This document shows, one piece after another, positions 3,635 to 24,843 of a stretch of 64,000 bases of DNA (positions within the stretch are counted from its first letter, which is position 1; every line of letters begins with the position of its first letter). The DNA comes from Sphingomonas sp. HMP6. GTDB lineage: Bacteria > Pseudomonadota > Alphaproteobacteria > Sphingomonadales > Sphingomonadaceae. Made by a program: the position numbers and the translations under genes. The notes beneath the pieces are model-generated. The model was not told where the DNA came from. It ran no database searches and saw nothing but the letters and a program-made list of their open reading frames with translations. The stretch is from the NCBI RefSeq assembly GCF_013374095.1, contig NZ_AP022672.1, forward strand, positions 3,551,501 through 3,615,500, read 5' to 3'.

Positions 3635-3648
3635 TGGTGACCCCTACG
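3635..3648. repeat. Left attachment-site repeat (distal att)
   Basis: This 14-bp copy of the tRNA-Glu(CTC) 3' end, tggtgacccctacg, is not part of a tRNA here. It marks the left edge of the element whose other copy is at 24830-24843. It lies 158 bp upstream of the integrase start. Confidence 0.75.
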
Positions 3649-3734
3649 GATACCGTTCTGAAATTCTAGGAACGATCATTACGTCCCAGCTACTTGATCT
3701 TGTTGCGAATACCTGAAAACAGTCGGGCCAGTGC

Positions 3735-3787
3735 GTCCCACAGTTTTCCGCTAAATCCGGATCAAAGTGTGGGACTTGATGTGGGAC
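3735..3787. promoter_or_regulatory. Candidate integrase arm-type sites (GTGGGAC repeats)
   Basis: The heptamer GTGGGAC occurs inverted at 3735-3741 and direct at 3769-3775 and 3781-3787, between the left att repeat and the integrase start. The same heptamer recurs at 24756-24762, with a partial copy at 24767-24772, just inside the right att site. Repeats of this kind at both ends are what arm-binding sites of a tyrosine integrase look like; binding is inferred. Confidence 0.45.
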
Positions 3788-3805
3788 TTCATTGTGGAGT
3801 TTCAG

Positions 3806-4963
3806 ATGGCGTTGACGACTCTCAAGGTCAAACATGCAGGCCCCGGCAGACATGCCGATATGCACGGTCTCTACCTCCTCGTTCGCGATAGCGGAGCGCG
3901 GTCCTGGGTGCTGCGGATGCAACACGCCGGGCGACGTCGCGATTTCGGCCTTGGACCTGCGCAAGACGTTCCTCTTGCGGATGCACGCATCCTCGCCGCG
4001 AACTTGCGCAAGGCCGTTCGCGCGGGCGAGGAGCCTGAATCGCGGCGTAGGGCAGGGCAAAGGTCTGCACCGACCTTCGAGAAAGTCACGCGCGATTGCT
4101 ACGACACTATGAAAGGTGGTTGGAAGGACCAGCGTCACGTTTCCTGGATATCGAGCTTCGAGCGGCACGTCTTTCCGCTCATCGGTGGCAGAGCCGTGAC
4201 CGCGATCGACAGCGCAGCGGTCCTCACCGTGTTGGAGCCGATCTGGCTTACGGTCCCGGACACCGCAAAGCGAGTGCTGCAAAGGATCGGTACGGTGCTG
4301 GACTACGCGCACATCAAAGGGTTCGTGCCGGAGGAGGTTTCGCTTAGATCCGTTACACGCGGCCTCCCGCGGCAGACGCATCAGGTGACCCATCGCGCGG
4401 CGATGCCGCATGAAGATGCGCCCGCGTTCATGAAGGCCCTGCTGGCGCTGCCTTCGACCTTGGGTCGCGATGCGCTGCAGCTCACGATCCTGACCGCGGT
4501 GCGATCCAACGAGACCCGCAAGGCAGTTTGGGGCGAGTTCGACCTCGACAAGGCGACATGGTCGATCCCGGCATCCCGCATGAAGATGAAGGAAGCGCAT
4601 GTCGTGCCACTGGCACCTGCGGCTGTTAAGCTTCTAAGAGCCTTGCGCCAACGCCACCTTGAACTGCACGGAGCGGTGAAGCCGGAGCGCCTGTTGTTCA
4701 GTTCGCGTCGCGACAAGCCGATCAGCGACATGACGATGCTCAAAGTTCTGCGCGACATGAAGATCACGGACGCGACGGTGCACGGCTTCCGTAGCACCTT
4801 CACCGACTGGGTAGCCGAATGCACCGACGTTTCGAAGGAGGTCGCCGACAAGGCGCTGGCGCACCAGATCGCAAATGCGGTCGAAGCGGCTTATCGGCGC
4901 ACCGATTTCTTCGACCGGCGACGCGTGCTTATGAGCGAGTGGGCACACTTTCTGGGAGCTTGA
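3806..4963 (+). CDS. P4-type tyrosine recombinase/integrase
   Basis: The product is 385 residues and catalyses integration and excision of the element at tRNA-Glu. An N-terminal DUF4102-like arm-binding region (about 1-85) and a SAM-like core-binding domain (about 90-190) precede the catalytic domain. The catalytic residues are visible: Arg233 (TAVRSNE), His326 and Arg329 (HGFR), His353 (ALAHQ) and nucleophile Tyr363 (EAAYRR). The ATG at 3806 is chosen because GGAG lies 6 bases upstream; an open GTG at 3767 would add 13 unlikely residues over the candidate arm sites. It reads inward from the left att repeat, the usual place for an island integrase. No in-frame defect is seen. Confidence 0.92.
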   Translation: MALTTLKVKHAGPGRHADMHGLYLLVRDSGARSWVLRMQHAGRRRDFGLGPAQDVPLADARILAANLRKAVRAGEEPESRRRAGQRSAPTFEKVTRDCYDTMKGGWKDQRHVSWISSFERHVFPLIGGRAVTAIDSAAVLTVLEPIWLTVPDTAKRVLQRIGTVLDYAHIKGFVPEEVSLRSVTRGLPRQTHQVTHRAAMPHEDAPAFMKALLALPSTLGRDALQLTILTAVRSNETRKAVWGEFDLDKATWSIPASRMKMKEAHVVPLAPAAVKLLRALRQRHLELHGAVKPERLLFSSRRDKPISDMTMLKVLRDMKITDATVHGFRSTFTDWVAECTDVSKEVADKALAHQIANAVEAAYRRTDFFDRRRVLMSEWAHFLGA

Positions 4964-5189
4964 GGCTGTCGCGGCTTGTGGGCCGATCCCGTCTGACCGG
5001 TTCTGGCCATGACCAAGCAGAAAGCCAACCTCTGGTTCAGCCAGTGCAATTCGACCGCTTCCGACCCAGACATTGCCATTCCGGGAGCTCAGCGGTGATC
5101 CCGAAAGCCGACCGGCGGCTTTTCTTCGCCGCTAAGGATCGCACCGCCGCTGTCGCACGGCTTGGCCTGGTGGAAAGCGGACGTAGCCG

Positions 5190-5714
5190 TCAGCCGCCAG
5201 TCCAGACGCTGAACTTACTCGGCTCCGGCGTGGCAACGGTCGAAAGATGGATGACAGATCGCGGATTTAGACCTGACATCTTGATCAGAAAAAGATGAAG
5301 GTTCGGCGTTCCTGAGCAATCCGCGCCGATATTTACTTCGTAATCCGCTTCGGAGCAAGCAGCGAAGATTCCTGCATCTGTGTTCACCAGCAGGGCGACC
5401 TTTCGGTTTTTACGCTCGTCAAGGAACATTACGTCGAAAATTTCGAATGTGCTCACTGGTAGTGGGTCAAGACGCGCCAGCTCGTTCGCAAGATCGCGTT
5501 CCATAGGAGAACCATCGGCCATCAGGCGCATGTTAAATAACTCACGAAACCTTTCTTTGTCACGCTGCCACCATGCTTCAAATAACCTCTGCACCTGCTG
5601 GTTTTCTAGGCCCGCAGCACGTGGCGACTTGAGCGCATACGAACAGGCATTAGCGGGCGTCGAGAATAAAGCTGGCAAAGTTGCTGCCAAAGCGAGAAGG
5701 CTTCTGCGATCCAT
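5190..5714 (-). CDS. Secreted hypothetical protein (174 aa)
   Basis: The start chosen at 5714 gives a clear signal peptide (Arg-Arg, then LLALAATLPALF, cleavage after A-N-A before Cys-Ser-Tyr). The mature part has a helical FEAWWQRDKERFRELF segment followed by beta-rich sequence with FDVMFLDERKNRKVALLV, and three Cys. The layout resembles an NTF2/SnoaL-like fold, but this is a weak structural guess. The frame stays open upstream to 5978 only because it reads through an antisense tRNA fragment; that extension is rejected. It stands alone on the island next to the integrase. Function is unknown. Confidence 0.6.
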   Translation of the reverse strand: MDRRSLLALAATLPALFSTPANACSYALKSPRAAGLENQQVQRLFEAWWQRDKERFRELFNMRLMADGSPMERDLANELARLDPLPVSTFEIFDVMFLDERKNRKVALLVNTDAGIFAACSEADYEVNIGADCSGTPNLHLFLIKMSGLNPRSVIHLSTVATPEPSKFSVWTGG

Positions 5715-6093
5715 CGAGGTAGGATGGATGACGGTTTGAATGTCCGCAAGTGGGCGGCAACGGTCGGGCCGCTTTCCTGCCCGAAACCTTCCGGTTGGCT
5801 TTCGGGCGGACCGACGCGGCGGAAATGATCCGAACGGCGTCAGGTGGTGGAAAGCAGACCGGCAACTTTCGGGCTCCGAATGCCTGAAGTCCCCTTCCGC
5901 TGCCGGATTTCCTTTTTTATCCGCGCTGCACACTGGGGGTGTGAGGGTCGCAGGTTCGAATCCTGTCGCTCTGACCAACTTTCTAAATAGTTACAGTTAC
6001 TTAGGTGACATTCGGAAAGTGCTTGCGGTTTCGCATTTGTCGCCCATATCCGCTGGCTTCTAGCCCCTGATTGCCGAGGGCAATGTTGGCGCG
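5715..6093. other. Non-coding stretch with tRNA-Pro fragment and degenerate repeats
   Basis: These 379 bases hold no supported gene. 5752-5900 contain a run of GC-rich short phrases (gggccgctttcctgcccgaa and relatives) of the kind that recurs between sphingomonad genes. 5928-5977 is the 3' half of a tRNA-Pro, listed separately. Confidence 0.5.
5928..5977 (+). tRNA. tRNA-Pro(GGG) 3'-half fragment (probable att scar)
   Basis: An anticodon arm with GGG in the loop (5928-5944), a T arm with loop TTCGAAT (5950-5966), an acceptor 3' strand CGCTCTG, discriminator A and CCA are present and in the right spacing. G72 and A73 fit tRNA-Pro. No 5' half precedes it, so it is not a functional gene. A fragment beginning at the anticodon arm and running to CCA is what a tyrosine integrase leaves as a displaced att copy, so this is probably the scar of another insertion. 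Confidence 0.6.
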
Positions 6094-7650
6094 TTAGGAT
6101 CTACGCAGGCTCACGCGATAATGGTAGAGCCCGAGCTGCTCTACCACGGCAAAGTCACCGACCCGCGCGTCATGGCGTGCGAAAAACGCGCGGGCCAAAG
6201 ACCGGTCCCGGAAAAACTTTTTCGAACCATCGAGGTCCGTCATCGTCGGAGCACCGCCGCCATAGTCGACCGCCACCTGTCGTGGCGCGATAGCGCCCTT
6301 ATTGGACCCGCCGATGGCATCGGCAGGGAAGCGATCGAAAAATCCGCGCAGGTAAATATGCGAATTGTCGATATTGCCTTGTGTGAGCTCCACCTCGCCG
6401 AGGACAAGTGCTCCGGCCCTCGCTTGCGCCACCGCTGGCGCCGCTGCTATTGTTGGTGCGGAAATCACGGCTGCGCGAACCGGGGCAGGCACTGCCATCT
6501 TGGGTGGCGCGCTTACGGGTATCACCTGACCAACCTGCTCGGCCAGCAGCACAACCTGTGCCGCAGCCCGCGCGTCCTCGCCAGCATCGTGGTGGTCAAA
6601 GCTCAGCGACAGGACCGTTTTCAGATTGGCAAGGCCATGGCCGCCGTTGCCTTCCAGTTCCGGCCAAGCCTTGCGCGCGACCTGCACGCTGTCGCGCCAA
6701 GCCCAATCCGGCGACGACAGCCTGGCCTTCTGGCAAGCTGCGGTGATCGCGCTGCAATCGAAGCCGGAATGCTGATACACTGTCAGCCCTGCCAGCGCCC
6801 CGCGCAACACCTTCATCACCTCGGCAAACAGCGGGGCGCCCGCGACCGTTTTCGCGCTGATCCCATGCAGATAAGTGAAGCGCCATTCCTGCACCTGCGG
6901 GTCGACATGGGCCTTCCAGGTGACAATCGTATTGTCGGGACGCACGCAGGCGACACCGATCTGGCAGATGCTTCCCCGGTCGTTGTTGGCGGTTTCGACA
7001 TCGAGCGCGACAAACCGGAACGGGCCTTGGGGGAAGCGCAGCACATTGGGGCCTTGGCCGCTTACAGCAGCCAGCGCAGTTTGCGCGACCGGCATTCGGC
7101 CGCTGGCGGCATTCAAGCACTGTCGCTGGCGTTCCAGCGCAGCCTTTTCCCGATCCCCCCAACCCAGATGGCGGATGGTCTCGTCGACCAGATCGACCGG
7201 CTCGTCATATACGGCGGTCTTGCGCGCGTTCCACGCGGTGGCCTCTGCCGGCGCAATGCGGATCACCTCGGCTTCGAGGCCAACAATGTCGGCGCTGTCG
7301 GGCAAGACAACCCAGACCGCGCGGCAATGCCGGGCGATGAAGGTGTTGCGCAACTTCTTGGCGATGCCCCCATCGGCCTGGGTGGCCGGGTCAAGCCGCT
7401 GGCGCCACATTCTGCCCGTGTTGTACATGGTGGAGAAGTAGTGGCTGAGGTGTTCCGAGCCGGTCCGGTGCTTGGCGTGGATGCGGCTGTATAAGGATTG
7501 CCCAAGGGATTTGGTCGAGCCGATGTAGCGCAGATGGCCGAGATGGTCGACGAGGCCATAGAGCCCGCGCCCATCTCGAGGGGCGTCCTTGGTGTGGCGG
7601 TGCGGGGCGGCAAGCAGTTGATCCAGCAGGTCTTGGGCTGAGAATTCCAT
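6094..7650 (-). CDS. GIY-YIG-like / DnaQ-like 3'-5' exonuclease fusion with unknown C-terminal domain
   Basis: The product is 518 residues with three parts. Residues about 25-110 look like a GIY-YIG nuclease core (GLYGLVDHLGHLRYIGS, then Arg-Ile-His). Residues about 205-375 are a DEDDh exonuclease: FVALDVETAN gives Asp and Glu, YQHSGFDCSAI the second Asp, and HHDAGEDARAA the His and final Asp. The last ~95 residues (SHIYLRGFFDRFP, AIGGSNKG, then a Tyr-rich end) form a separate domain I do not recognise. DnaQ/UvrC-like fusions occur in DNA repair; here the island context makes a defence or element-maintenance role equally possible. The start at 7650 has AAGGA well placed. It is last in a three-gene reverse cluster. 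Confidence 0.72.
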   Translation of the reverse strand: MEFSAQDLLDQLLAAPHRHTKDAPRDGRGLYGLVDHLGHLRYIGSTKSLGQSLYSRIHAKHRTGSEHLSHYFSTMYNTGRMWRQRLDPATQADGGIAKKLRNTFIARHCRAVWVVLPDSADIVGLEAEVIRIAPAEATAWNARKTAVYDEPVDLVDETIRHLGWGDREKAALERQRQCLNAASGRMPVAQTALAAVSGQGPNVLRFPQGPFRFVALDVETANNDRGSICQIGVACVRPDNTIVTWKAHVDPQVQEWRFTYLHGISAKTVAGAPLFAEVMKVLRGALAGLTVYQHSGFDCSAITAACQKARLSSPDWAWRDSVQVARKAWPELEGNGGHGLANLKTVLSLSFDHHDAGEDARAAAQVVLLAEQVGQVIPVSAPPKMAVPAPVRAAVISAPTIAAAPAVAQARAGALVLGEVELTQGNIDNSHIYLRGFFDRFPADAIGGSNKGAIAPRQVAVDYGGGAPTMTDLDGSKKFFRDRSLARAFFARHDARVGDFAVVEQLGLYHYRVSLRRS

Positions 7651-7751
7651 GATCGTCCTTGAATGCGGCGTGGCGCATGGCGTGTGTCACGCCAAGATGC
7701 GTGTGAGGGTGCCAGGACCGGCGCCGATGGTGTGTGGCGCCGGCGGGTGGA

Positions 7752-8921
7752 TCAGTCCGGGCTCCAGATGTCGGTGAGATTGAGGATGAGACGGTCGGGG
7801 GCGGCGCGGAGCGCGGCGGCATAGCGACGCAGTTCGGCCCAACTCGGCAATTGCCGGGCAGCCCGCCGAGCAATGATCACTTGTTCGGCAGCGTCGAGAT
7901 CCGGCGAGGGTTTGGTCGCTCGCGAGCGGATGTTCGCCAACGCCTCGTCCAAGGGGTGAGATTTGAACTCGTGGATCATCACCCAAGCCCATATTTCGGA
8001 AGAAGTCTCGCTCTGGCGCAAGGGGGCGAAATTCCGGCGGCTGGTGATCCAATCGAGCAGCGCATCATTGTCGATCTTTGACTTGACCAAACTCAGCCCG
8101 TCCCGGCTCATTGCATTGCGCACCGCAGTGACTGGCATGCCGGTCAGGGCACCAATTGCCTCGGTGGTCCCGAGCTCGACATTGTCATCTACGTAAAAGC
8201 ACCCATCGGCGATGCGCCAGCGGTTGTAGGCGGCCAGAACTGTCCGGTTGAGCGAGCTTCCCTCCCGGTCGAGCGGTGAGCCATAGCGGCGGGAAAAACG
8301 CACCATAGAGCCACGCAGGATCTGCTCAAGTTCGTCTGCTTCATCGAGGTCGAGCGCTTCGCAAGGCCAAGGGCGAAACGCGCTTTCATAGGCGCGTCGG
8401 GCGATACGGGTGATGTTGAAAGCGTCAAGATTAAGCTTCTCGCCAATCTTTTTGTGATTGTAATCCGAAAAGTCTTCGACCTCAAAGCCGAGAAAAGCCG
8501 TCGCCGCTGCGATGCCGGCGATCCGTTCAAGGTCTGCCGCTTGTGAGACGAGGTGTTCGCGTAGATCTTCCATCATTGCCTGGAGCGTGAAGGGGGGGGC
8601 GGGCATGGTGTAGGTCCATAGGTCGTCAAAGTGGTCGACCGGGGCATCGACGAACTGCAGCGAAGCGGGAGACACCAGACTGGCTGGTGAGCGGCCATCC
8701 GACATGCGGATGGGGTAGCCTCTGTGTACAAGCTCGAGCGCTTCGCTGTAGCTGGAAACGAGGACGGCATTGTCCTTGTGGTGACGCTGGGCGCCATGAG
8801 CCGCGTCGGCCAGCACAAACATGCCGTTCTGGCTCGGGTCGCGGTCGCGCTGACGCCAGGGGCGTTCGATCGCTCCGGTGATCGGGTTGGTGCGCAGGAT
8901 CTGAGTGAAAAAGCTGGGAAT
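7752..8921 (-). CDS. Hypothetical protein with an HTH-like segment (389 aa, probable ATT start)
   Basis: The product is mostly helical and acidic and has no recognised family. Residues about 248-295 (TTEAIGALTGMPVTAVRNAM, then LLDWITSRR) resemble an AlpA/excisionase-like helix-turn-helix. A longer open frame to 9296 runs antisense-in-frame across the upstream gene and is not credible. Coding-quality sequence begins just after the upstream stop; the first plausible start there is an ATT at 8919-8921 with GGGAG about 7 bases before it. The next in-frame ATG is at 8822 and would remove a conserved-looking N-terminus. It lies 20 bases after the DUF4258 gene and 101 before the nuclease gene, so the three are probably one operon. 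Confidence 0.6.
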   Translation of the reverse strand: MPSFFTQILRTNPITGAIERPWRQRDRDPSQNGMFVLADAAHGAQRHHKDNAVLVSSYSEALELVHRGYPIRMSDGRSPASLVSPASLQFVDAPVDHFDDLWTYTMPAPPFTLQAMMEDLREHLVSQAADLERIAGIAAATAFLGFEVEDFSDYNHKKIGEKLNLDAFNITRIARRAYESAFRPWPCEALDLDEADELEQILRGSMVRFSRRYGSPLDREGSSLNRTVLAAYNRWRIADGCFYVDDNVELGTTEAIGALTGMPVTAVRNAMSRDGLSLVKSKIDNDALLDWITSRRNFAPLRQSETSSEIWAWVMIHEFKSHPLDEALANIRSRATKPSPDLDAAEQVIIARRAARQLPSWAELRRYAAALRAAPDRLILNLTDIWSPD

Positions 8922-8941
8922 GGCGGGTCTCCCTGGAAAGA

Positions 8942-9226
8942 TTAGTGCTGGCGTGCAGCGGTAACGATGGTGCCGTTGTCGGCGACGATGACATAGGCGT
9001 TGCGGTAGCGACCGAGTTGCGCGGCCCCCGGCCCCAAGATGCGGGTGGCCTCGGCCCAGCTGTCGGCATCGAAGCTGTGCTTGTAGCAGTCGCCGCCAGC
9101 CCACATGCACTCGGTCAGCGAGAGCAGCAGATCCACGACATAGCCAGGGATCGAGCGCTGTTGCATGCGGATGATGGCGTGGGAGCTGAAATGGTAGCAC
9201 TTGGGGATCGCTGAAAATGTCTGCAT
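8942..9226 (-). CDS. DUF4258-like small protein
   Basis: The product is 94 residues. FSSHAIIRMQQRSIP near residue 13 and the late YVIVADNGTIVTA strand are the two hallmarks of DUF4258, a small fold related to RelE/BrnT-type toxins. The start at 9226 is firm: GGAGG lies 5 bases upstream and a near-consensus promoter lies 27 bases further. It is the first gene of a reverse-strand cluster with the 389-residue unknown protein and the DnaQ-like nuclease. A toxin role, with the neighbour as antitoxin, is possible but unproved; the catalytic residues of RelE-type RNases are not clearly present. Confidence 0.7.
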   Translation of the reverse strand: MQTFSAIPKCYHFSSHAIIRMQQRSIPGYVVDLLLSLTECMWAGGDCYKHSFDADSWAEATRILGPGAAQLGRYRNAYVIVADNGTIVTAARQH

Positions 9227-9252
9227 GATGGCCTCCTGGCTTGATGGTTGTG

Positions 9253-9281
9253 ATATAAAGCCAATTAATAAGGCGTGTCAA
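9253..9281 (-). promoter_or_regulatory. Near-consensus sigma-70 promoter
   Basis: Read on the reverse strand: -35 TTGACA (9276-9281), a 17-base spacer, and -10 TTATAT (9253-9258), followed by GGAGG and the start at 9226. A perfect -35 is unusual in this GC-rich genome and points to a strong, acquired promoter for the DUF4258 cluster. Confidence 0.7.
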
Positions 9282-10155: not shown

Positions 10156-10159
10156 CAAG
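10156..10159. repeat. Target-site duplication CAAG, left copy
   Basis: CAAG directly precedes the left inverted repeat of the IS and recurs at 11410-11413 directly after the right one. Four bases is the size typical of the IS407 group of IS3. Confidence 0.75.
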
Positions 10160-10177
10160 TGACGTGACCCCCGTCTT

Positions 10178-11083
10178 TCATCCAGCGGCAGCCAGAGACC
10201 GACCGTTGTTGTCGCGCAGGAGCGCGGGCGAAGCAACGGGCGGGTTTAAACCCGCCCGTTGCTTTTCGAGGTCGGCGGCAAAGGCCGCCGGTGTGGCGTA
10301 GCCGAGCGAGGAATGTGGCCGCTCGGTGTTGTAGTCATCGACCCAGCGCGCGAGGATCGAGCGCGCCTGGCGGACCGTGAAGAACAGCGTCTCGTTGAGC
10401 AGCTCGTCGCGCATGCGACCGTTGAAGCTCTCGACGAACCCGTTCTGCGTCGGCTTTCCCGGGGCGATATAGTGCCACTCGACGCAAGCATCGCCCGACC
10501 ACGCGAGAACCGCGTTCGAGGTCAGTTCGGTCCCGTTGTCGCTGACGATCATCCTGGGCGCACCGCGCTCGGCGATCAGATCACCCAGCTCGCGCACCAC
10601 CCGCTTGCCCGAGATCGACGTGTCGAGCACCGCTCGCAAACACTCGCGCGTCACGTCGTCGACGATGTTGAGGATGCGGAACCGCCGCCCCGTGGCCATC
10701 TGGTCGTGGACGAAGTCCAGGCTCCAGCGCTGGTTGGGCAGCGCCAACACGGGTGCCGGTGCCCGCGCACCGACGGCGCGCTTGCGGCCCTTTCGGCGTC
10801 GCACCGTCAGACCTTCCTCGCGGTAGAGCCGCTGGGTCTTCTTGCGGTTGATCGTCATGCCGTCGCGCCGCAGCAGGATATGCAGCCGCCGATAGCCGAA
10901 CCGCCGGCGCTGCTGCGCCAACTCGCGCAGACGCGACCGCAGGTCGCCATCATCCGCCCGGCACGAGCGATACCGCATGCTTTTGCGATCCGCCCCGACG
11001 ACAGCACACGCCCGCCGCTCGCTCATCCCCAGCGCCGTCTGGAGATGCGCGACCGCTTCCCGCTTCGCGGCAGGCGTTACCAT
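10178..11083 (-). CDS. IS3-family transposase OrfB (DDE domain)
   Basis: The product is 301 residues from the ATG at 11083. An N-terminal HTH_21 region ([15 protein letters not shown]) precedes the rve integrase core. The DDE residues are visible in [19 protein letters not shown] and [16 protein letters not shown], followed by the usual [12 protein letters not shown]. It is normally made as an OrfAB fusion by a -1 shift at the A7 run (11083-11089). It ends 18 bp from the left end of the IS. Intact. Confidence 0.93.
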
Positions 11084-11343
11084 TTTTTTGATAGCAGGTC
11101 CTTCAGACCCGCGTTGTCGAGCATCGTGTCCGCCAGCAACCGCTTGAGACGGGCGTTCTCCTCCTCGAGCGCCCGCAACCGCTTCGCATCGGACACCTCC
11201 AGACCGCCGAACTTGGCCTTCCACGCATAATAGGTCGCGCTGGACATCCCGTAGCGCCGGCACAGATCCGTCACCACCGCGCCAGCCTCGGCCTCTTTCA
11301 GGATGCCGATGATCTGCTCTTCCGAAAACTGCTTCCGCTTCAT
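11077..11343 (-). CDS. IS3-family transposase OrfA (HTH)
   Basis: The product is 88 residues: [20 protein letters not shown] begins a Tnp_8-type helix-turn-helix with [16 protein letters not shown] as recognition part, then a leucine-zipper-like tail ([17 protein letters not shown]). It binds the IS ends. It overlaps OrfB by 7 bases in the -1 frame. The start at 11343 is preferred over an open ATG at 11382. Confidence 0.9.
11083..11089 (-). other. A7 slippery site for OrfA-OrfB frameshift
   Basis: Seven consecutive A (reverse strand) lie where OrfA ends in Ser-Lys-Lys-Trp-stop and the OrfB frame reads Lys-Lys-Met-Val. A -1 shift here yields the OrfAB transposase typical of IS3 elements. Confidence 0.7.
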
Positions 11344-11409
11344 CTGTCCGTCCCTTCTTCCGGGGTCGGACTCTAGCTCCAACTGGAGGAAAAAACGGGG
11401 GTCACGTCA

Positions 11410-11413
11410 CAAG
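11410..11413. repeat. Target-site duplication CAAG, right copy
   Basis: This is the second copy of the 4-bp duplication made on insertion of the IS3-family element; it directly follows the right inverted repeat ending at 11409. Confidence 0.75.
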
Positions 11414-13134: not shown

Positions 13135-13341
13135 TCAGGTTTCGTCCGGGCAGGTGTAGTGAATCGGGTTTCGAAGCCACGCTGTTACAGCCGACTCGCG
13201 CCATCCCGCACAGCGCGTGCTGATCGCGATCTGCTTGGGAAAGCTTCCATCCTTGATTTTCCGGTACAATGTCGATCGGCTGAGGCCCGTACGATCGAGT
13301 ACGGTCGGTAGTCGGAGAATTCTGTCAACAAAGTCCGACAT
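13135..13341 (-). CDS. AlpA-family helix-turn-helix regulator
   Basis: The product is 68 residues from the ATG at 13341, which has GGAG 7 bases upstream. RILRLPTVLDRTGLSRSTLY followed by KIKDGSFPKQIAIS and a Trp-containing WRESAVTAWL is the full AlpA/MerR-like excisionase signature. AlpA proteins of P4-like elements activate integrase genes or act as excisionase, so this is probably the element's own regulator, although it now lies 8 kb from the integrase. Frames open upstream of 13341 are rejected. Confidence 0.85.
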   Translation of the reverse strand: MSDFVDRILRLPTVLDRTGLSRSTLYRKIKDGSFPKQIAISTRCAGWRESAVTAWLRNPIHYTCPDET

Positions 13342-13691
13342 GGCTCGCTCCTGCATTCGCTGGCAGATGAGGCTCGGGCAAGCCATCAAAGGGAGCAAGG
13401 CCAAAGGCCTTCGATCCAACTAAAGGATAAAGAAACAAGCTGTGGAGTAGTCGGAATGTTACCTGTATTGCGCCAGACCACGTCCGGCGAGGTTCAAACG
13501 GCTCGCCGGGTGTTGAGAACGTCTTGGGAAAACGCGTCGGAACCTTTGGGGCTAACCCTTGGACATTCGAACCGACCACCCGGCGGACTGACGACATAGT
13601 ACCAATTTTTCGGGCTTCGCTCCAGTAAGGGGACGTAGTCTGGCTACGATTTCTTGTTCGGAGTCGAAGCCCACCGCCGCTTGGCGGAACG
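13342..13691. other. No supported gene
   Basis: 350 bases between the AlpA gene and the IS110 remnant. A reverse frame is open across it but reads as proline/serine-rich noise without a ribosome site. No RNA or repeat was recognised. Confidence 0.4.
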
Positions 13692-14745
13692 CTAACGTCT
13701 GACGGGATATGGCTCGAACTCACTATTAGTCTGCCACATCGTCAGCATGACTATCGCTAATTTTCGGCCTACCGCCATCCGGGCTCGCCCGTAGCCTGCC
13801 CGCTTCGCCAACTCGCTGCCCCAGTCACTCAGCGCACAGCGTTGAGCGGCCCGCGACAACATTACGCCAGCGGAAATCACCAGATGCGTCCTCGTAAGCC
13901 GATCACCCGCCCGGCTAATACTGGATGCGAAGAACCTTCCCGGACTGTTTCAATGTTGGCACCATGCCCAGATAGGGGCCAACGTCCGCAGGCCGGTGGA
14001 AGCGCGAGGGTTCGTCGATCGCCGAATAGAATGACAGCGCACAGATCGGGCCAACACCGGGAATTTTGAGGAAGCGGCTAGTGATGGGGTTACCCTCGGC
14101 CCGTCTTTTCAGATCCTTGTCCGCCTGTCGGATGCTCAGGTGCAACTGTGCGCACAGCTCAATCAGGGGACGTAGCGTGCGCGCCGCCTCAGACATGCCG
14201 GTTTGCCCCAAGGCCTTAATCTCAGCCTCAACTTTGGTACCCATAGCGAGGCCAACGCCTAGCTGCTTGATGGTGCTGCCATAGTTGCGCAACATCGCAC
14301 GAAGGCAGTTCCGGTTTGCGGCGAGCAGCCAGACTAGGCGGTGTCGAAGGGCAAGCTCGGTTCTAATTTGCTGAGCCTCCTGTCCGCGAACGTGTACGGC
14401 CAAACGGGGTACACCCCCTAACCGTGCGATCTCCGCTATGCCGCGCGCGTCGTTGATGTCCGTCTTATGACATCGAACCGCGAGCACTTTGCTCGTTTTA
14501 CGCGAGTCAAAAACGGAGACGGGAAAGCCCAACTTGGCGAGGCGAGGGGGCAGCGTCGGCGAGGCGCCTGTCTCCAACGCGACCGCCGCAATGTTGGTGA
14601 GTGGAAACATGGCGAGGGATTTAGCGATGTCGTCAGCTGTCGATCCCGACGGACATTCAAGTACGGGCAGCCCGGTATGATCTAGCACGCACACTGCTGT
14701 GCTAACTTCGCCGACATCGAGTCCAACCCAAAACTTCGAGGTCAT
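13692..14745 (-). pseudogene. IS110-family transposase, frameshifted
   Basis: From the ATG at 14745 the frame reads the RuvC-like DEDD domain (WVGLDVGEVSTAVCVLD, then LETGAS and KTDINDARGIAEIARLG) and the C-terminal Tnp_20 region (FLKIPGVGPICALSFYSAID, then PYLGMVPTLKQSGKV). It stops at 13915 after Leu-Arg-Ile-Gln-Tyr. The normal continuation (SISRAGDRLTRTHL, then MLSRAAQR) is found in another reverse frame from about 13925 down to 13692. A small indel near 13921-13930 therefore broke the gene. IS boundaries could not be located; IS110 elements lack clear terminal repeats. Confidence 0.82.
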
Positions 14746-15320
14746 CGCGCACCTCATTTATGTTTGCGTCGGCGGCCCTAATTTGGGTGCCAGGTCGCGG
14801 AGCGCCTGCAACGAGGTTTCGGGGTCCGCCGACGAATGGATAATGTCTAATTTGCACCGAGTCTGAATTCGCAAAGCGGTGAGCCGCCCCATAGATGCGG
14901 TGCCGTGCAATCACTTGAGCCTCTCGATTTTCACGAAGCAATCCACTCGGGATGCGCCCCAAATATTCGTTCCGATGGCGACCCGTGCTTCGCACGGCCA
15001 CGCTCTACGCCGCTGTGCGGCGCCGAGCCGCTTCGCGTCTCGTCCCTGCGGGTGACGATCGTTGACGCAGTCCGGATCTCCGATCCGGTTAGCTGACATC
15101 GCGCTTCGCGCGCTGGCGCTGGTTGCGGCCGCGGCCAAGGGGGTGGGCGTCGCTACCCTCTAGTCCCGCCGCGGCGTGCCGCAACCCGGCTGCGCCGGGC
15201 CCTCCGCTTCGCTGCGGCCCTGCGGGTGCGGCCCGCCTCCGTCGGCGGGACTGCCGGTTCGCTCCTTGCCGCCCACCCCCTTTTCCGGGGCCGTGTGCGT
15301 TTTAGGAAGGAGGAAGAAAG
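14746..15320. other. Long GC-rich intergenic region with nested palindromes
   Basis: 575 bases without a supported gene. From about 15030 to 15300 it is packed with short inverted repeats such as GGATCTCCGATCC, CGCTTCGCG and CCGCTTCGCTGCGG. Such blocks occur upstream of accessory genes on sphingomonad mobile elements. The start of the sigma-like gene follows with a strong AAGGAGG site at about 15306-15312. Confidence 0.45.
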
Positions 15321-15551
15321 ATGAGGTGGAGGTTCTGGCGTCGGCTCCCTCGTGTGAGGCCCGAAGTGGCCCGGCTGGAGCGAAAGCTGTGGCGGATGGA
15401 TTCCGTCACGCGGGAGGTCTTCTTGCTGCATCGGCTGGATAGCCTTGGCTATCGCGAGATCGCCGAGCGCTTGGAGATCGACGTGGCGGAGGTGGAGCGT
15501 CGCATGGCCAGCGCCTTGGTCCATCTCGTTGAAGCGAGCGAGGCCGACTGA
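15321..15551 (+). CDS. Sigma-70 region 4-like HTH protein (76 aa)
   Basis: The product is short. VTREVFLLHRLDSLGYREIA followed by ERLEIDVAEVERRM is the helix-turn-helix of sigma region 4.2, with its usual ERLxIDVxEVERR recognition helix. There is no region 2, so it cannot act alone as a sigma factor. The ribosome site GGAGGAAG directly upstream is the strongest in the island. It is followed within 61 bases by the MNT-HEPN gene. It may be a regulator of that gene or of the element. Confidence 0.75.
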   Translation: MRWRFWRRLPRVRPEVARLERKLWRMDSVTREVFLLHRLDSLGYREIAERLEIDVAEVERRMASALVHLVEASEAD

Positions 15552-15612: not shown

Positions 15613-16515
15613 ATGTTGCGCACGTCCCTCGATCATCTTCCCGCCTCTCGGCAGCGCGAGCTTGCCCATGTCGCGCGCGTATTGTGCGAGGAGTTCGAGG
15701 CCGCGCACGCGATCGGCACCAAGGACTGGAAGAAGGCGCGGCGCATCTTCAAAATCGTGCTCTACGGCTCGTTCGCGCGCGGCGACTGGGTCGATGATCC
15801 GGTTGGCGGCTATCAGTCCGATTATGACATCCTGATCGTCGTCAATGACGAGCGCCTGACCGAATTCGAATATTGGTCGGCCGCCGAGGACCGGCTGATG
15901 CGCGATACGACCATCACCAAAGCGCTTAGTGCGCCGGTCAACTTCATCGTCCATTCGCTGACCGACGTGAACGCCCAGCTTGAGAAGGGTCGACCGTTCT
16001 TCGTCGATATCGTAAGCCAGGGGATCGCGTTGTGCGAGGCCGAGGGGTTCCCGTTCGCGCAGTCCCGCGACTTGCCGTCGGAAGAGGCGAGGGCGGAGGC
16101 GGAGAAGCACTTTGAGAAGTGGTTTCCGAGCGCCGAGGCATTTCTGCGGATGGGGGAGGGGGCGCGCGCAGCGGGCGACCGAAACGAGGCCGCATTCGTG
16201 CTCCATCAGAGCGCCGAGCGCTTCTATCATTGCGCGCTGCTCGTGCTGACCCTCTACAGTCCAAAATCGCACAAGCTAAATTTCCTTCGTTCGCATGCCG
16301 AGGAAATCGCGCCTGAGTTGATCGAGGCGTGGCCCCGCAGCGATAAGTTCAGCCGACGCTGCTTCGAGCTTTTGCGGCAGGCCTACGTGAACGCCCGCTA
16401 CTCGAAACATTATGAAATCAGCGACGGCGAACTGCGCTGGCTCGGCGAGCGGGTCGCGGCGCTGCAGCAGCTGGTCAAAGCTGTTTGTGACCGTCGCCTT
16501 GCGCCGCGCCACTGA
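15613..16515 (+). CDS. MNT-HEPN fusion protein (nucleotidyltransferase + HEPN)
   Basis: The product is 300 residues. The N-terminal half holds a minimal nucleotidyltransferase (LYGSFARGDW with Gly52-Ser53, then DYDIL with Asp70 and Asp72). The C-terminal half is a HEPN domain (FVLHQSAERFYHCALLVL, then ARYSKHYEI with Arg262 and His266). As separate proteins, MntA AMPylates and silences the HEPN RNase toxin HepT (type VII toxin-antitoxin). Here both are one chain. The R-x3-H spacing is one residue shorter than canonical Rx4-6H, so RNase activity is uncertain. The start is the first ATG after the upstream stop; its ribosome site is weak. Confidence 0.82.
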   Translation: MLRTSLDHLPASRQRELAHVARVLCEEFEAAHAIGTKDWKKARRIFKIVLYGSFARGDWVDDPVGGYQSDYDILIVVNDERLTEFEYWSAAEDRLMRDTTITKALSAPVNFIVHSLTDVNAQLEKGRPFFVDIVSQGIALCEAEGFPFAQSRDLPSEEARAEAEKHFEKWFPSAEAFLRMGEGARAAGDRNEAAFVLHQSAERFYHCALLVLTLYSPKSHKLNFLRSHAEEIAPELIEAWPRSDKFSRRCFELLRQAYVNARYSKHYEISDGELRWLGERVAALQQLVKAVCDRRLAPRH

Positions 16516-16536: not shown

Positions 16537-17037
16537 TTAGCCAGACTTTGCAGTGCGTGGGCCGCGCTTCGGCTTTTCCGCTAGCGCGCTTGCCGCAGCT
16601 TTCGCCGCGCGCCCCTTGCTGCCGAGGCCGATTTTGAGCGCCATTGCGCGCCGCTGCTCGGAATAGCTTTCGGCCACCATTGGGTAGTCGGGTCGCAGAT
16701 TGTAGCGCTCGCGATACTGTTCAGGCGTCAGCCCGTGGCCAGACAGGTGACGGCGCAAGGTCCGGTACGGTCTTCCATCGATCATCGAAATGATGTGGTC
16801 TTTCGAGGCTAGCGATTTGCGCGCCGAGACTGCGGGTGTGTAGCCTTCCGAACCTGATGCATCTGGAGTTTCAATGAGCGCCGAGGCTTGCCCAGAGAGT
16901 TCGATCACGGTGGCGTGCATCGCGCGAAGAAACGCCGGCACGTCCTCCGCTGAGACGCGATTGTTCTGATTGCCGAGCCAGGCGATCGTAAGTTCAGTCG
17001 CGAGTTCGACGGCGTTCAAAGTGGGTTCGTCAGACAT
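16537..17037 (-). CDS. MucR/Ros-family regulator lacking the zinc cysteine
   Basis: The product is 166 residues. PYRTLRRHLSGHGLTPEQYR and the downstream DYPMVAESYSEQR and KIGLGSKGRAA are unmistakable Ros/MucR landmarks. In most members a Cys in an ICLEDGK-like turn binds zinc; here that turn reads HIISMIDGR, so the Cys is replaced. Some family members are known to fold without zinc. The start at 17037 has GGAG seven bases upstream. MucR proteins commonly repress exopolysaccharide and horizontally acquired genes, so it could act on the element or on the eps locus of this window. Confidence 0.85.
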   Translation of the reverse strand: MSDEPTLNAVELATELTIAWLGNQNNRVSAEDVPAFLRAMHATVIELSGQASALIETPDASGSEGYTPAVSARKSLASKDHIISMIDGRPYRTLRRHLSGHGLTPEQYRERYNLRPDYPMVAESYSEQRRAMALKIGLGSKGRAAKAAASALAEKPKRGPRTAKSG

Positions 17038-19375: not shown

Positions 19376-19481
19376 GGGATGCTCCTCGTTGGAACGCTTG
19401 CTGCGCTACAGCCGGATGGGTGTGGCCCATAGGCCAGGCTGGGTTGTGTCCGCCTCGCCTGCGATTGTATAAAACAGGCGG

Positions 19482-20444: not shown

Positions 20445-20827
20445 CACGATTTCCCTCTTCAAAAAGCAACGCAGAAAATCTGCCGTGCTGCCTGTCTCAA
20501 GCCTTCGGCTGAGTGGCGGATCAACTAGAGCCGCCCCGCTTCTTGCTGGGCATGATGGCTACCGTGTCGAGCAATCGCCGCGCTATCCCACGATCATGGG
20601 GGGGCGGTCGGGTGGCCTGTGCTATCGTGGCGCGCTACGCTGCAGCGGGAGCGAACGCAGCAGCGGCGACCGATCGAACGAGGACAGCGAATACCTAAAA
20701 TGATCGGCCATTTGCAGCCTCGTTTCCTGAACTGCGTGCGATGCGGCCGATCCATCACGGCGCTGGAACACGAAACCAATCCAGCGCTGCTGCTGTCAGC
20801 AGCGCGCTCGTATTTTTTAGCAGCGCG
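20445..20827. other. Divergent intergenic region
   Basis: 383 bases between the reverse exported-protein genes and the forward histidine kinase gene. It must hold promoters for both directions, but no box pair was clear enough to call. Short forward frames here are not supported. Confidence 0.4.
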
Positions 20828-22495
20828 GTGACGCCGGAGATGATCCGTCGATTGGCAGTGTGCGCCTGTGTCGCCGTTGCAACCCTCATTGCGGCGCTGT
20901 TGTTCAAACCGCCGCTGCCGACCTCGCCCCAGTCCGATACTTACGGGATAGTGCTAGTCGAGCCGGGAGATCTGGGCCTGCCCCGGCTGCCGGTCACGGC
21001 GACCCGGGTGCTGCCCTTCGCACAGCAATTCGATTGGCCAGTCAGCATGGCCAGACAGTATGACTATTCGGCTCCCGTGAACCTGCCGTCCGGCCAAAAT
21101 CTCGGCGTCTACGTTCCGTTCCTCGGGGCCGACGCCCGACTTTACGTCAATAACGTTCCAGCAGGCGACGCTGACCTGCTGAACTTTGCTGGACCTGGCA
21201 CAGGGGATCGTCGCGTGTTGGTCCGCATTCCTTCCCACTACCTGAAGGGCGCATTCAATCGCGTCGATATCGTGGTTTCGAGCGATGATCGCCATGTCGG
21301 CATGCGCTACTTTTACCTAGGGGATTTCGACACACTCCAACTCGACGCAAATCGCATGGATATGTGGCGGACGGTCGTCCAGCGGACGGGCCTGGCGTGC
21401 GCGGTACTGGGCTTGCTGAGTTCCGTGCTGGCGATCGTGTTGCGGCGAAGGATTAGGCTGCACCTGGCGCTAGCGCCCGTTTCGCTGCTGACGCTGGCAT
21501 ATGGCGCAATCAGTGTCCCGCCGCTCTGGATTATTGTCGGGATTTTGAGCTCGATCGTTGGCTTGCTGATCGCCCTCGGGCTGCGGCATCGTTTTGAAAG
21601 CAAGTCTGGAGGCGTCTTCGACGGTCTGCTGATGGCTGCGCTGCTTTCGACAATTGCGGCTGCAATGTTGGCGTTCGGGTCGATCTTGCCGTCTGGCGCG
21701 AAGTGGCTGATCGGCGTTGCGAACCTGGGCCAACTCCCGTTGCTCGCGATCGGCCTGCCGCTGCTGCTCGGATCGGACGTGATGGCGCTTCGCCGCGACC
21801 TTGCGGCCGCTCGTTCGACTGCGGCCGAACAGACGAAGATCGCGAAGAGCGCGGAGGAAGCGTTACGCGAGGAAATCCGGTCACGAGCGGTTGCCGAAGA
21901 ACGGCAACGGTTCGTGCGCGACATGCACGACGGCATCGGAGGGCAGATGCAAGCGCTGCTGATGCGTCTTCGAATGCGCAAGATCGCAATCGCCGACGTC
22001 GAAAGCGAGGTCGCGGCGGGGCTGGTTGATTTGCGACTGGTGGCCGATTCACTGGACCATGTCGGCACCGACCTGGCCCAGGCCCTTGCGACGTTTCACA
22101 CCAGGGCTCGGCAGCAGTTCGATGCGGTGGGGATTGGGCTGATATGGAATCAGAGCGGAGACTGCTCACGGATCATATTGGACCCGCGGGCCATCTTGAA
22201 CGTGTACCGTATCCTGCAGGAGGCGCTCACCAACTGTGTCCGCCATGCGCACGCCAATCACGTTACCGTCACAATCGAGCTTCCGCCCAATGCGGGGCTT
22301 CTGGCGATCCTTTTCGAGGACGATGGTCGCGGATTTGAGGCGACCGCTGTGTCACATGGTAGAGGTCTAGGGAATATGGCTCAGCGCGCGGCCAGGCTTG
22401 GGGCGAAGTTCGATGTGATCAGCGTTCCGGGAATGGGCGGCAGCCGGATCGAACTGATCGTGCCAGTTCAATCGCAAGAATCGTCACAGGTCTAG
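20828..22495 (+). CDS. NarL-type sensor histidine kinase
   Basis: The product is about 555 residues. An N-terminal membrane helix is followed by a periplasmic 7TMR-DISM-like region (about 40-170), then about six membrane helices (190-330), a coiled coil, and a HisKA_3 dimerisation domain. The phospho-accepting His lies in RFVRDMHDGIGGQMQ (about residue 367). The HATPase_c domain has its N box in ILQEALTNCVRHA and its G box in EDDGRGFEA. The start is uncertain: GTG 20828 is used here; ATG 20840 is an alternative but overlaps its own GGAG. The 3' end overlaps the convergent response regulator gene by 12 bases. Confidence 0.87.
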   Translation: MTPEMIRRLAVCACVAVATLIAALLFKPPLPTSPQSDTYGIVLVEPGDLGLPRLPVTATRVLPFAQQFDWPVSMARQYDYSAPVNLPSGQNLGVYVPFLGADARLYVNNVPAGDADLLNFAGPGTGDRRVLVRIPSHYLKGAFNRVDIVVSSDDRHVGMRYFYLGDFDTLQLDANRMDMWRTVVQRTGLACAVLGLLSSVLAIVLRRRIRLHLALAPVSLLTLAYGAISVPPLWIIVGILSSIVGLLIALGLRHRFESKSGGVFDGLLMAALLSTIAAAMLAFGSILPSGAKWLIGVANLGQLPLLAIGLPLLLGSDVMALRRDLAAARSTAAEQTKIAKSAEEALREEIRSRAVAEERQRFVRDMHDGIGGQMQALLMRLRMRKIAIADVESEVAAGLVDLRLVADSLDHVGTDLAQALATFHTRARQQFDAVGIGLIWNQSGDCSRIILDPRAILNVYRILQEALTNCVRHAHANHVTVTIELPPNAGLLAILFEDDGRGFEATAVSHGRGLGNMAQRAARLGAKFDVISVPGMGGSRIELIVPVQSQESSQV

Positions 22496-23140
22496 CCAGC
22501 CGTTTTGGACCGCCTCGAACACCGCTTCGTTGCGCGAATGCACGCTCATCTTGGAATAGATCGCCTTCACATGGTCGGCGATAGTATGCTGCGATATATC
22601 GAGGGCTGACCCGGTTTCACGATACGATAGGCCGCGCGAAAACATCAGAAGGACGTCGCGCTCGCGGGGCGTGAGGATGTTGGCGACTTCAGTCGCTTTA
22701 GCATCCGGTCGACTGAGCATCCCGAGCAAATGGGTCGCAATCTGCGGACTGATTGGATTGCCGCCTGCATGCAGGGCATGGATGTCGCGGATGATCTGGT
22801 CAGGCGGGGTGTCTTTCAGCAAATAGCCGCTGGCGCCAAACTCGAAGGCGAGCAAGACGCTGGCCTTGTCACCCAATACGGTGAGGATCAGCGACCGCCC
22901 CCCGGTCGCGTCCGCGAAATGTCGGATAAAGTCCAACCCGTTGCCATCGGGCAGTTTGATATCGACCAGACAGATGTCTGCGAGCGTCGTTTCTATCGCT
23001 CGCCGCGCGTCGACGATACGCTCGCAGGCGAACGCGACGTGAAAGCCATCGGTCTCTTCGATCAACAGCGTCAAATATTCGCGCGTCGCTGGGTCGTCTT
23101 CCAAAACGCCGACGGCGATTGACGTCGGGACGACAGTCAT
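22484..23140 (-). CDS. LuxR/NarL-type response regulator
   Basis: The product is 218 residues. The receiver domain has the acidic pocket LEDDP (Asp15, Asp16), phosphoacceptor Asp60 (CLVDIKLPDGNG) and Lys109 (YLLKDTPPD). The C-terminal LuxR HTH begins LTPRERDVLLMFSRGLSYRE and includes ISQHTIADHVKAIYSKM. It is the natural partner of the kinase encoded convergently with overlapping ends. Its ATG overlaps the stop of the upstream exported-protein gene (ATGA), implying translational coupling to it rather than to the kinase. Confidence 0.9.
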   Translation of the reverse strand: MTVVPTSIAVGVLEDDPATREYLTLLIEETDGFHVAFACERIVDARRAIETTLADICLVDIKLPDGNGLDFIRHFADATGGRSLILTVLGDKASVLLAFEFGASGYLLKDTPPDQIIRDIHALHAGGNPISPQIATHLLGMLSRPDAKATEVANILTPRERDVLLMFSRGLSYRETGSALDISQHTIADHVKAIYSKMSVHSRNEAVFEAVQNGWLDL

Positions 23141-24333
23141 CGCTTGCGCACTCTGTTTCGATCCCAGCAATTTGCGTGCGGTTGGTCGACGATATCGATC
23201 CACATCCGGGATTTGGACGGGATGCGGCTGTAAGATATCACGCCACCTCCGCCGCCTTCATGATAGCTCAAGACGCGCCACCCTGCGCCGAATTCCGCAC
23301 TGCAACGGGCGTTGGCCGTTGCTAGCGTTGGAAAGTCGGTCCCCGCCAGCGGCGTGGTCATTCGAACCTCGCCGCCGTTGAACGAATCCAACTGCAGCCC
23401 TAATTTTTTCAATCGAGCAATGTCAGGGGCTTTAGAGCCAGGCTTGAAGCATCCCAGCGGCAACGCCGCAGCGCAACTCATATCGCCACTATAAGGGTCG
23501 CAACCCGGCTGACTGAAATCTCCGTTGCAGCGAAGCCAGGACAGGTCCTCGCCGATGCTTTTATTGTGAAATTCGCGAAAGGTGACCCCACGTATGTCGT
23601 CGGGTGCCATGCAAAGAACCAGCGCCATGAAATCGATGCTGGTGTCGTCGCCGATGGCTACTTCTACGTGGTCGGGCCGGGCGGGAGAGTTCGCCCAATC
23701 CACAAACCGTTCGCTCGATCCGGGCGGCATGCTCATGGGTAATTGCGCCAAATTCATCGTCAGCAAAATGCTGCCGTCCGGCAGCGTTTTACGATTTTCG
23801 ATGTCTTTCAGCCGTCGGCCAAATTCGATCGTACCGAAGCGAGCTTGGTTATCAGGATTGTCGACTAAATCCCCTAATCGGACATTATCGTTGCCCGCTC
23901 CCGGCTCGCCGCGCGTTCGTAGCACCAACTGCGCAGTCTCGATGCCGCTTGGCATCTGGAACCAGTCTGTGAAGTATTTGTCGGCCCCGGGTTCGTCATA
24001 ATTCCTGAGCCCCATTACGCGATTTTTGCCCGCTGCAAGGTCTTTGAACAGACCAGTGCCGAGCAATCGCGGATCGATGCGCGCCGGCTCATTTCCTCCT
24101 CTGGCGAATCCGTCCTCGACGCCATTTACGAGAACTATTCGACGCTGCCATCGTTGGCACGTCGTGCGATCAACTATATCGAGCCCTGGTGTTATAGAGC
24201 GTGTAACTCGATCGAAATCTGCCGAAGCGTTCGGCCTATACCCGCTGATGTGGACAAGCGCGAACCATGCACAAAGCGCACCTAGCGTGCCGACAAATGC
24301 CACAGCCGCCGGCGACCTCAACTTGCTGCTCAT
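23137..24333 (-). CDS. Membrane-anchored or exported protein of unknown function (398 aa)
   Basis: An N-terminal hydrophobic helix (AVAFVGTLGALCAWFALVHI) is followed by a periplasmic region rich in Cys and Gly. Notable stretches are LGCFKPGSKAPDIARLKKLG near residue 295 and the C-terminal WRVLSYHEGGGGGVISYSR, which resembles tails of other uncharacterised secreted proteins. It is the first gene of a two-gene reverse unit with the response regulator (4-base overlap). That coupling suggests its product acts in, or is sensed by, the same system. The start is uncertain between 24333 and 24360. No family was recognised. Confidence 0.6.
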   Translation of the reverse strand: MSSKLRSPAAVAFVGTLGALCAWFALVHISGYRPNASADFDRVTRSITPGLDIVDRTTCQRWQRRIVLVNGVEDGFARGGNEPARIDPRLLGTGLFKDLAAGKNRVMGLRNYDEPGADKYFTDWFQMPSGIETAQLVLRTRGEPGAGNDNVRLGDLVDNPDNQARFGTIEFGRRLKDIENRKTLPDGSILLTMNLAQLPMSMPPGSSERFVDWANSPARPDHVEVAIGDDTSIDFMALVLCMAPDDIRGVTFREFHNKSIGEDLSWLRCNGDFSQPGCDPYSGDMSCAAALPLGCFKPGSKAPDIARLKKLGLQLDSFNGGEVRMTTPLAGTDFPTLATANARCSAEFGAGWRVLSYHEGGGGGVISYSRIPSKSRMWIDIVDQPHANCWDRNRVRKR

Positions 24334-24829
24334 AGCTAAACGCAACTCGAGCCCCCTCATTGCGCGACACGACGACCTTCCAAGGCGGCCCGCTATTTCA
24401 GCCGCTCGTACGGCTTCCGTTATTTCGCTACCGTTACAGCCGTCGGGTCCAGTCGCCAAGGGGACAGGGGACACCGCAATTGCAAAGCCAATCGGAGGGG
24501 CCGCTTATCCTAGAGAGCCGCCTGAAAGTAGTCGGCCCGCTTGCGGCCCACATTCGGCCATCTAGCGGCACTTGAACGAGCGACCGCATTCGGGATGGGC
24601 TTAAACGGCCATAAACGCGGCTTCTTGGGTCATTCTGCCGCAAAGCTGCCGGGCGGCAGGAGCAACATCTCAAACCATCGCCGTAGTCGTTGATTGCGCA
24701 ACCCGTTTAATTTCTCACAATGCATCAAAGCGGCCCATAAAAGCCCGCAAATCGTGTGGGACCAAATGTGGGCGCCGTTTCAACCACCGCGTGAAAAAGC
24801 GGAGAATACTGACGATTCTGGCTTGACGC
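24334..24829. other. Right end of the island, no supported gene
   Basis: 496 bases hold the promoter region of the preceding reverse unit, spacer-like GC-rich phrases near 24580-24660, and GTGGGAC arm-like repeats at 24756-24762 and (partial) 24767-24772 close to the right att site. Confidence 0.5.
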
Positions 24830-24843
24830 TGGTGACCCCTACG
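24830..24843. repeat. Right attachment-site repeat within tRNA-Glu 3' end
   Basis: This is the 14-bp sequence tggtgacccctacg shared with 3635-3648. It covers CCA, the discriminator, the 3' acceptor strand and the first T-stem bases, so insertion restored an intact tRNA. Confidence 0.75.

Follow-up and report, generated by a model that had tools for sequence, protein, structure and literature searches.

A probable single integrative element in tRNA-Glu(CTC) of Sphingomonas sp. HMP6, with its integrase at the tRNA-distal end

Borders, integrase and attachment sites

The genome of Sphingomonas sp. HMP6 is a single contig of 3,637,071 bp, of which we analysed one stretch of 64,000 nucleotides (NZ_AP022672.1, positions 3,551,501 to 3,615,500), hereafter called the window. 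Between window positions 3635 and 24843 lies an island of about 21 kb, with an integrase gene at its left end and a tRNA gene at its right (Table 1). The 14-bp sequence TGGTGACCCCTACG stands exactly at both ends, at 3635-3648 and at 24830-24843, and its right copy is the 3' end of an intact tRNA-Glu(CTC), the sole tRNA that ARAGORN finds in the window. No further copy with up to two mismatches is present in the 64 kb; at the same tolerance, shuffled sequences give a mean of 0.20 matches, and two matches are reached in 1 of 100 shuffles. A preliminary description of this DNA had reported both the exact repeat and the identity of its right copy, which the window search and ARAGORN confirm, as well as a wider similarity of 20 in 23 bases, which is likewise found (3626-3648 against 24821-24843). 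It had also placed a P4-type integrase just inside the left copy, and that assignment is upheld by three Pfam domains: Arm-DNA-bind_3, Phage_int_M and Phage_integrase. The integrase reading frame opens at 3767, with a likely start at 3806, and ends at 4963; the tyrosine-recombinase motif residues R233, H326, R329, H353 and Y363, assigned by eye, are present.

The borders were compared with 20 integrase loci from named genomes, the named relatives with the closest integrases being Sphingomonas. Fourteen of these loci encode integrases at least 63% identical over the available part; two of them (L132 and L139) start inside the gene, and in 11 of the remaining 12 the integrase start is preceded, at about 170 bp, by the exact core, the core of R647 having a one-base deletion. 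There is no core at the six loci whose integrases are at most 34% identical. DNA similarity to the window starts at 3635 in S. echinoides (93% identity), S. populi and R647, at 3634 in L127, at 3633 in L126 and L128, and at 3626 in L129; that is, the homologous junctions break at the same place, 3633-3635 in six loci and 3626 in one. Five more distant loci align locally only from 3728-3735, so that their alignments have no bearing on the border. In none of the aligned relatives does the DNA left of the core align with the left flank of the window island.

Arm repeats of one type are found at both island ends, spaced as in relatives of very different length. On the integrase side, offsets of +100, +134 and +146 from the core recur in relatives, some of which have fewer than three. 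On the tRNA side, the window island, S. echinoides and MGR_bin343 have in common a GCTTGAC adjoining the core and a GTGTGGGAC arm in which GTGGGAC starts 74-75 bp from the core, while the arms of S. soli and R647 consist of GTGGGAC without the GTG prefix. The island interior holds no additional core or GTGTGGGAC arm. Taken with the points at which similarity starts in relatives, these same-type arms strongly support the earlier proposal of an integrative element with precise borders in tRNA-Glu. The stretch 3635-24843 is very probably a single integrated element, inserted into the 3' end of tRNA-Glu(CTC) by its own P4-type integrase, and a reduced member of its family; conserved core and arms together provide a nearly base-exact way of delimiting that family.

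Thirty of the 38 occurrences of the exact core, which are spread over 11 genomes, were read in their surroundings. At nine of these 30 places there is an integrase-side arm pattern, and at none of those nine cores does ARAGORN find a tRNA; at 13 there is a tRNA-side arm at 74-77 bp, and these include nine intact tRNA-Glu genes (ARAGORN) and one partial copy (R647, L155). Eight places have no arm: six are tRNA-Glu genes with at most 8 mismatches to that of the window, and two (L149 and L168) are not.

Recombination within the 14-bp core would keep the tRNA intact and leave a second core beside the integrase, which probably recognises the GTGGGAC-type arm repeats on either side of the core. The attachment site of the circular form of this clade (attP), as we infer it, would have the integrase on the 5' side of the tRNA-sense core, and for that reason integration would place the integrase at the tRNA-distal end. 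A circular mobilizable plasmid, pHSL2, carries the exact core and an integrase 66% identical to that of the window, with no tRNA detected by ARAGORN in the 41 kb read around it; it fits a free form of such elements without proving one.

Far-end integrase layout and its rival explanations

Ordinarily the integrase of an island lies beside the tRNA, and islands are often bounded by that rule. We find eight elements bounded at both ends: that of the window, which measures 21,195 bp core to core, and those of S. soli (15,827 bp), RGIG596 (36,801 bp), PL-96 (78,704 bp), R647 (26,512 bp), S. echinoides (4,437 bp, 2,656 of them N), MGR_bin343 (8,285 bp) and Stakelama (20,199 bp). The integrase is at the end distal to the tRNA in all eight. 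An intact tRNA-Glu closes seven of them (three CTC, four TTC); the R647 element ends in a 44-bp partial copy of tRNA-Glu, 20.3 kb before the intact one. Between the partial and the intact tRNA-Glu of R647 lies a second segment (G459:C5:220735-241046; L155, L164, L215), which has a ParB-like gene and its own copy of the hairpin-rich block described below.

Another 29 integrase loci (L097-L125, of which L097 is the same stretch as L135) were inspected. The exact tRNA-Glu core is present in seven, in one of which (L112) it lies at 212 bp rather than about 170, and in L102 the core is one base shorter. A further 19, with integrases at least 53% identical, have in a similar place a different sequence starting with TGG, antisense to a tRNA 3' end as judged by eye; these 19 were read at the integrase end, and one group among them has a putative tRNA-Arg target. 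The remaining two, L124 and L125, encode 49% identical integrases, each preceded immediately by an intact tRNA-Ser in the sense orientation, which is the ordinary layout. Elsewhere among L097-L125 ARAGORN finds no tRNA other than a tRNA-Thr in L108, some 100 bp to the left of where the core is presumed to be. As far as sampled, then, the far-end layout goes with the integrase clade, and related elements with the integrase at this other end would be missed or miscut by a rule that looks for the integrase beside the tRNA.

The preliminary description had suggested that the reversed layout might reflect inversion, nesting or a tandem pair of elements. Since the layout is common to all eight bounded elements, we regard it instead as a family trait, due neither to inversion nor to tandem insertion. 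That two tandem or nested elements are involved, the integrase-side core deriving from one and the tRNA-side core from another, is very improbable. The 3' fragment of tRNA-Pro(GGG) inside the island speaks for such a history, and arrays do exist, as the partial tRNA-Glu of R647 shows, but the absence of a core or GTGTGGGAC arm from the interior argues against it, as do the like arms at the two ends and their family spacing. An inversion that flipped the integrase end inside an ordinary island is scarcely credible, for the sole point in its favour is the distance of integrase from tRNA in the window, and against it stand both the uniform orientation of the eight two-ended elements and the 27 loci L097-L123, where the Glu core or the TGG-starting sequence is antisense to a tRNA 3' end (19 of them by eye).

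The flanks bear on a further claim of the preliminary description, namely that core genes resume outside both borders. This claim is half borne out. On the right, tRNA-Glu and a DAHP synthase gene are neighbours in 18 of 29 aligned loci of the same genus; on the left, none of the relatives examined, among them many drafts, has 1-3634 next to tRNA-Glu. In 16 same-genus genomes different DNA lies downstream of tRNA-Glu. Neighbours were compared by blastp on open reading frames (ORFs), tblastx being too noisy in this GC-rich DNA, and the matches of those 16 genomes fall on the DAHP synthase side and, in G021, on two genes right of the tRNA. Of the remaining matches, one is to a nucleotidyltransferase-HEPN protein of G033, 50% identical, and the others are weak (27-31%): four loci match a single ORF that lies 16-20 kb to the left of the window. 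The aldo/keto reductase of the left flank has homologs 66-76% identical in 14 other genomes, away from tRNA-Glu as far as their contigs reach; the DNA of 1-3634 matches nine of 11 genomes searched, mostly within that gene, and has no match in the other two, S. echinoides and G010. Because of the other DNA in 16 genomes and the lack of a left-flank match in S. echinoides, tRNA-Glu seems to be a hotspot, and the left flank too may be acquired DNA. Just left of the island border, at about 3368-3382, there is a run of some 15 G.

Inside the island, the tRNA-Pro(GGG) fragment suggests, from its sequence, the relic of a second element or attachment event since lost. A search of 298 genomes with window positions 5915-6095 gives matches in 292, those listed covering the tRNA-like part only (query 9 to at most 89), and did not find the source element.

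Several observations weigh against a single element with the borders given here. The empty-site join of 3634 to 24844 is absent from every genome examined, at one genome per species; the left flank 1-3634 is not demonstrably ancestral neighbour DNA; and the tRNA-Pro fragment shows the interior to be composite. Outside the window, the ends of the bounded elements were paired by the nearest core on the same contig, and the gap of N in S. echinoides makes its size a scaffold estimate, so that genes absent from it may sit in the gap. There is no GTGGGAC arm left of the pHSL2 core. Three places (L166, L172 and L174) have a tRNA-side arm and core (at 1501) with no tRNA on the right side; these might represent circular junctions or a different target. 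In L129, L131 and L168 the core is preceded on its left by 20-30 bases that, judged by eye, resemble the tRNA-side end of the window island minus its arm. The left-of-core bases of L134, L136 and L149 resemble one another, also by eye, and earlier elements at the site may have left such likenesses behind. The tRNA-Pro fragment and the tRNA-side-like left flanks are signs of earlier events; neither explains the layout.

Gene content, mobility and a hairpin-rich block

Table 1. Features of the island, in window coordinates
Feature	Position	Strand	Remarks
attR, integrase-side core	3635..3648	none	TGGTGACCCCTACG; homologous junctions in relatives
Integrase-side arm repeats	3735..3787	none	GTCCCAC at 3735; GTGTGGGACTTGATGTGGGAC at 3767-3787
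P4-type tyrosine integrase	3806..4963	+	385 aa from ATG at 3806; Pfam
tRNA-Pro(GGG) 3' fragment	5929..5978	+	49/50 bases as in intact gene G000:C1:1823671-1823747
RNase T/DEDDh exonuclease-domain protein	6094..7650	-	518 aa; cargo
IS3-family insertion sequence	10159..11410	-	20-bp terminal inverted repeats, 95% complementary
AlpA-type regulator	13138..13419	-	in 6/8 bounded elements
IS110-family transposase	13915..14757	-	between alpA and hairpin block
Conserved hairpin-rich noncoding block	15139..15282	+	144 bp; in 6/8 bounded elements
Sigma-70 region-4-like protein	15321..15551	+	76 aa; first gene past block
Fused nucleotidyltransferase-HEPN protein	15613..16515	+	in 6/8 bounded elements
Ros/MucR-type regulator	16537..17037	-	
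Sensor histidine kinase	20741..22495	+	cargo
LuxR-type response regulator	22484..23203	-	cargo
tRNA-side arm repeats	24754..24774	none	GTGTGGGACCAAATGTGGGCG; GTGGGAC starts 74 bp before core
attL, tRNA-side core	24830..24843	none	identical to 3635-3648
Intact tRNA-Glu(CTC)	24830..24904	-	ARAGORN

What the island shares with its family is the integrase, an AlpA protein in a presumed regulatory role, the hairpin block, a small sigma-like protein and the nucleotidyltransferase-HEPN protein; some members have, in addition, a MobA/MobL-helicase relaxase. The two elements that lack AlpA regulator, block and nucleotidyltransferase-HEPN alike are those of S. echinoides, with its sequence gap, and MGR_bin343; the R647 neighbour segment has a nucleotidyltransferase-HEPN gene too. 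In PL-96, a Pfam scan of 10 stretches from 15 large ORFs recognises a MobA/MobL relaxase with a helicase domain, whose large gene follows that for nucleotidyltransferase-HEPN at a distance of about 1 kb. By tblastn, RGIG596 and Stakelama have homologues at 65% identity, which brings the relaxase to three of the eight elements, always 0.7-1.0 kb after the nucleotidyltransferase-HEPN gene; at E 1e-3 it is absent from the other five and from the entire window. No type IV secretion family is recognised by Pfam among 29 island ORF stretches (some overlapping, and covering part of the ORFs) or the PL-96 stretches, and no phage structural or packaging gene among the same 29. For the proteins tried with NCBIfam and PADLOC, the hits are either weak or no more specific than an exonuclease or integrase domain.

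Because of the relaxase in three of eight members, the family looks, by its sequences, like one of integrative mobilizable elements. The window copy has no relaxase and is therefore better described as a reduced relative than as a working element of this kind; with two insertion-sequence transposases besides, it would perhaps be capable of excision, and transfer would need help. A segment of about 22 kb in G033 (G033:C1:2301390-2323609; L079, L080) lies between two copies of a tRNA-Glu(CTC) 3' end, with a longer repeat. It carries the hairpin block and a nucleotidyltransferase-HEPN gene, and contains no integrase related to that of the window (tblastn, E 1e-8).

The block is the part of the island most worth experiments. 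In the window, 38 nt separate its end from the start codon of the sigma-like gene, and at the loci of its relatives that were inspected, with start codons set by a simple rule, its upstream edge is about 170-215 nt before the gene start. Nine of the genes that follow it were scanned with Pfam: four have ParB_N, three ArdC, one sigma-70 region 4, and one is without a family. Counting weak matches, at E <= 1e-3, it occurs in 113 of 397 genomes of the host's bacterial family; a block model applied to 385 genomes of the class under strict filters, at E <= 1e-5, finds six, the host and five from five other families. Judged by eye, the five matches outside the host's family are followed by a ParB-like gene in L279, by ArdC-like genes in L281 and L283, and by unrecognised ones in L280 and L282. 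Plasmids have it as well (11 of 72,556 records, seven of them Sphingobium), and in eight plasmid regions the next annotated gene encodes an ArdC-like protein or a zincin-like metallopeptidase in four and a hypothetical protein in three, while in the L231 region a cysteine synthase gene lies next to the block on the opposite strand. There is no match in phage records, nor any Rfam match at E <= 1 at the block in the window or in eight relatives, and among titles and abstract openings, with subscription papers mostly outside, we recognised no description of either the block or the tRNA-Glu family. Found on mobile elements of different kinds throughout the class, in many cases ahead of antirestriction or partition genes, the block is a candidate for early expression of protective genes after transfer.

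That the block is structured is seen in alignment A2, which holds 41 of its 44 copies, one duplicate and two plasmid copies (L233, L234) having been left out. Of its cells 95.6% pair, against a shuffled mean of 84.5; 16 of 26 pairs have compensatory changes on both sides, against 8.5; and covariation scores 0.258, where the best of the slid controls reaches 0.065. The number of further pair types stands out less, at 28 against 24.4, a value matched by 19 of 500 shuffles. An outer stem is predicted only in a wider alignment of 21 sequences, where 17 of 35 pairs have changed on both sides.

A structure that acts as RNA would be expected to favour G-U pairs. In the block there are 12 G-T/T-G cells against 11 A-C/C-A cells (8 against 11 without the weak helix 6), a count without a valid control. 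The control attempted with tRNA, at 15 against 0, is invalid, as 14 of its 15 cells come from two fixed G-U pairs; expressed as departures it gives 1 against 0, and it is further spoiled by the way in which ARAGORN selects paired sequences. With G-U no commoner than A-C, the count leans towards DNA. The block might instead act as RNA, a structured leader that serves as attenuator or switch, and not as single-stranded DNA, and we give that reading a serious chance, somewhat short of even. The position of the block's upstream edge relative to the start codon is in keeping with a leader, as are the helices backed by compensatory changes and the strong fold (z -5.2 as RNA and, similarly, -4.5 as DNA); the uncontrolled G-T count is not, and fold probabilities under RNA and DNA parameters fail to discriminate.

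Rather unlikely, though worth entertaining, is a switch of the Frpo type, in which the block would fold as single-stranded DNA on the incoming strand after conjugation and turn on the ArdC, ParB and sigma-like establishment genes. The invalidity of the tRNA control for the G-U count lowers its odds. If it were true, the block would mark the island as descended from DNA that travels single-stranded.

More doubtful still is a role for the block as the elements' origin of transfer. In PL-96, RGIG596 and Stakelama the relaxase does follow the block after a few genes, and seven of the 11 block-bearing plasmids are typed as conjugative or mobilizable, but it keeps a similar distance to the next start codon and not to the relaxase gene, it also occurs in elements where no PL-96-type relaxase was found, and the plasmids that bear it differ in MOB type.

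Elsewhere in the window, a match to the suhB/mmgR small RNA at 36459-36536 on the minus strand falls below threshold (25.7 bits, against a gathering value of 41), and positions 56001-57000 have a GC content of 0.476, the remaining 1-kb steps ranging from 0.557 to 0.692.

Comparison with known systems

Like the tRNA-targeted islands with P4-type integrases, the present family has a tRNA 3' end as its target, a short direct-repeat core, an integrase at one end and an AlpA-type regulator. It differs from them in the distal position of the integrase in every bounded element, where their ordinary layout, as in L124 and L125, has the two adjoining. Islands of the PAPI-1/pKLC102 type also have the integrase distal to the tRNA gene, a likeness that concerns the layout.

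With integrative mobilizable elements the family shares a relaxase in some members and the absence of any recognised transfer apparatus among the ORFs scanned. A sphingomonad example is pPDL2 of Sphingobium fuliginis, an integrative mobilizable element with a seryl tRNA site and copG-int modules (PMC3516476). An integrase and an attachment site at a tRNA 3' end are common to both systems; unlike pPDL2, the window island uses tRNA-Glu, and it has no PL-96-type relaxase.

For the hairpin block, two systems offer likenesses of description. EGeRS1 of the Bacillus conjugative plasmid pLS20 is a structured sequence of 420-750 bp upstream of ardC and other establishment genes (PMC8708921), and the block resembles it as a structured sequence ahead of ardC or establishment genes on mobile elements, although EGeRS1 belongs to another host group and is larger. 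The Frpo single-stranded promoters lie in plasmid leading regions, upstream of genes such as that for the single-stranded DNA-binding protein SSB (PMC11541004); they too come from another host group, and the block resembles them in being a structured sequence placed ahead of mobile-element genes.

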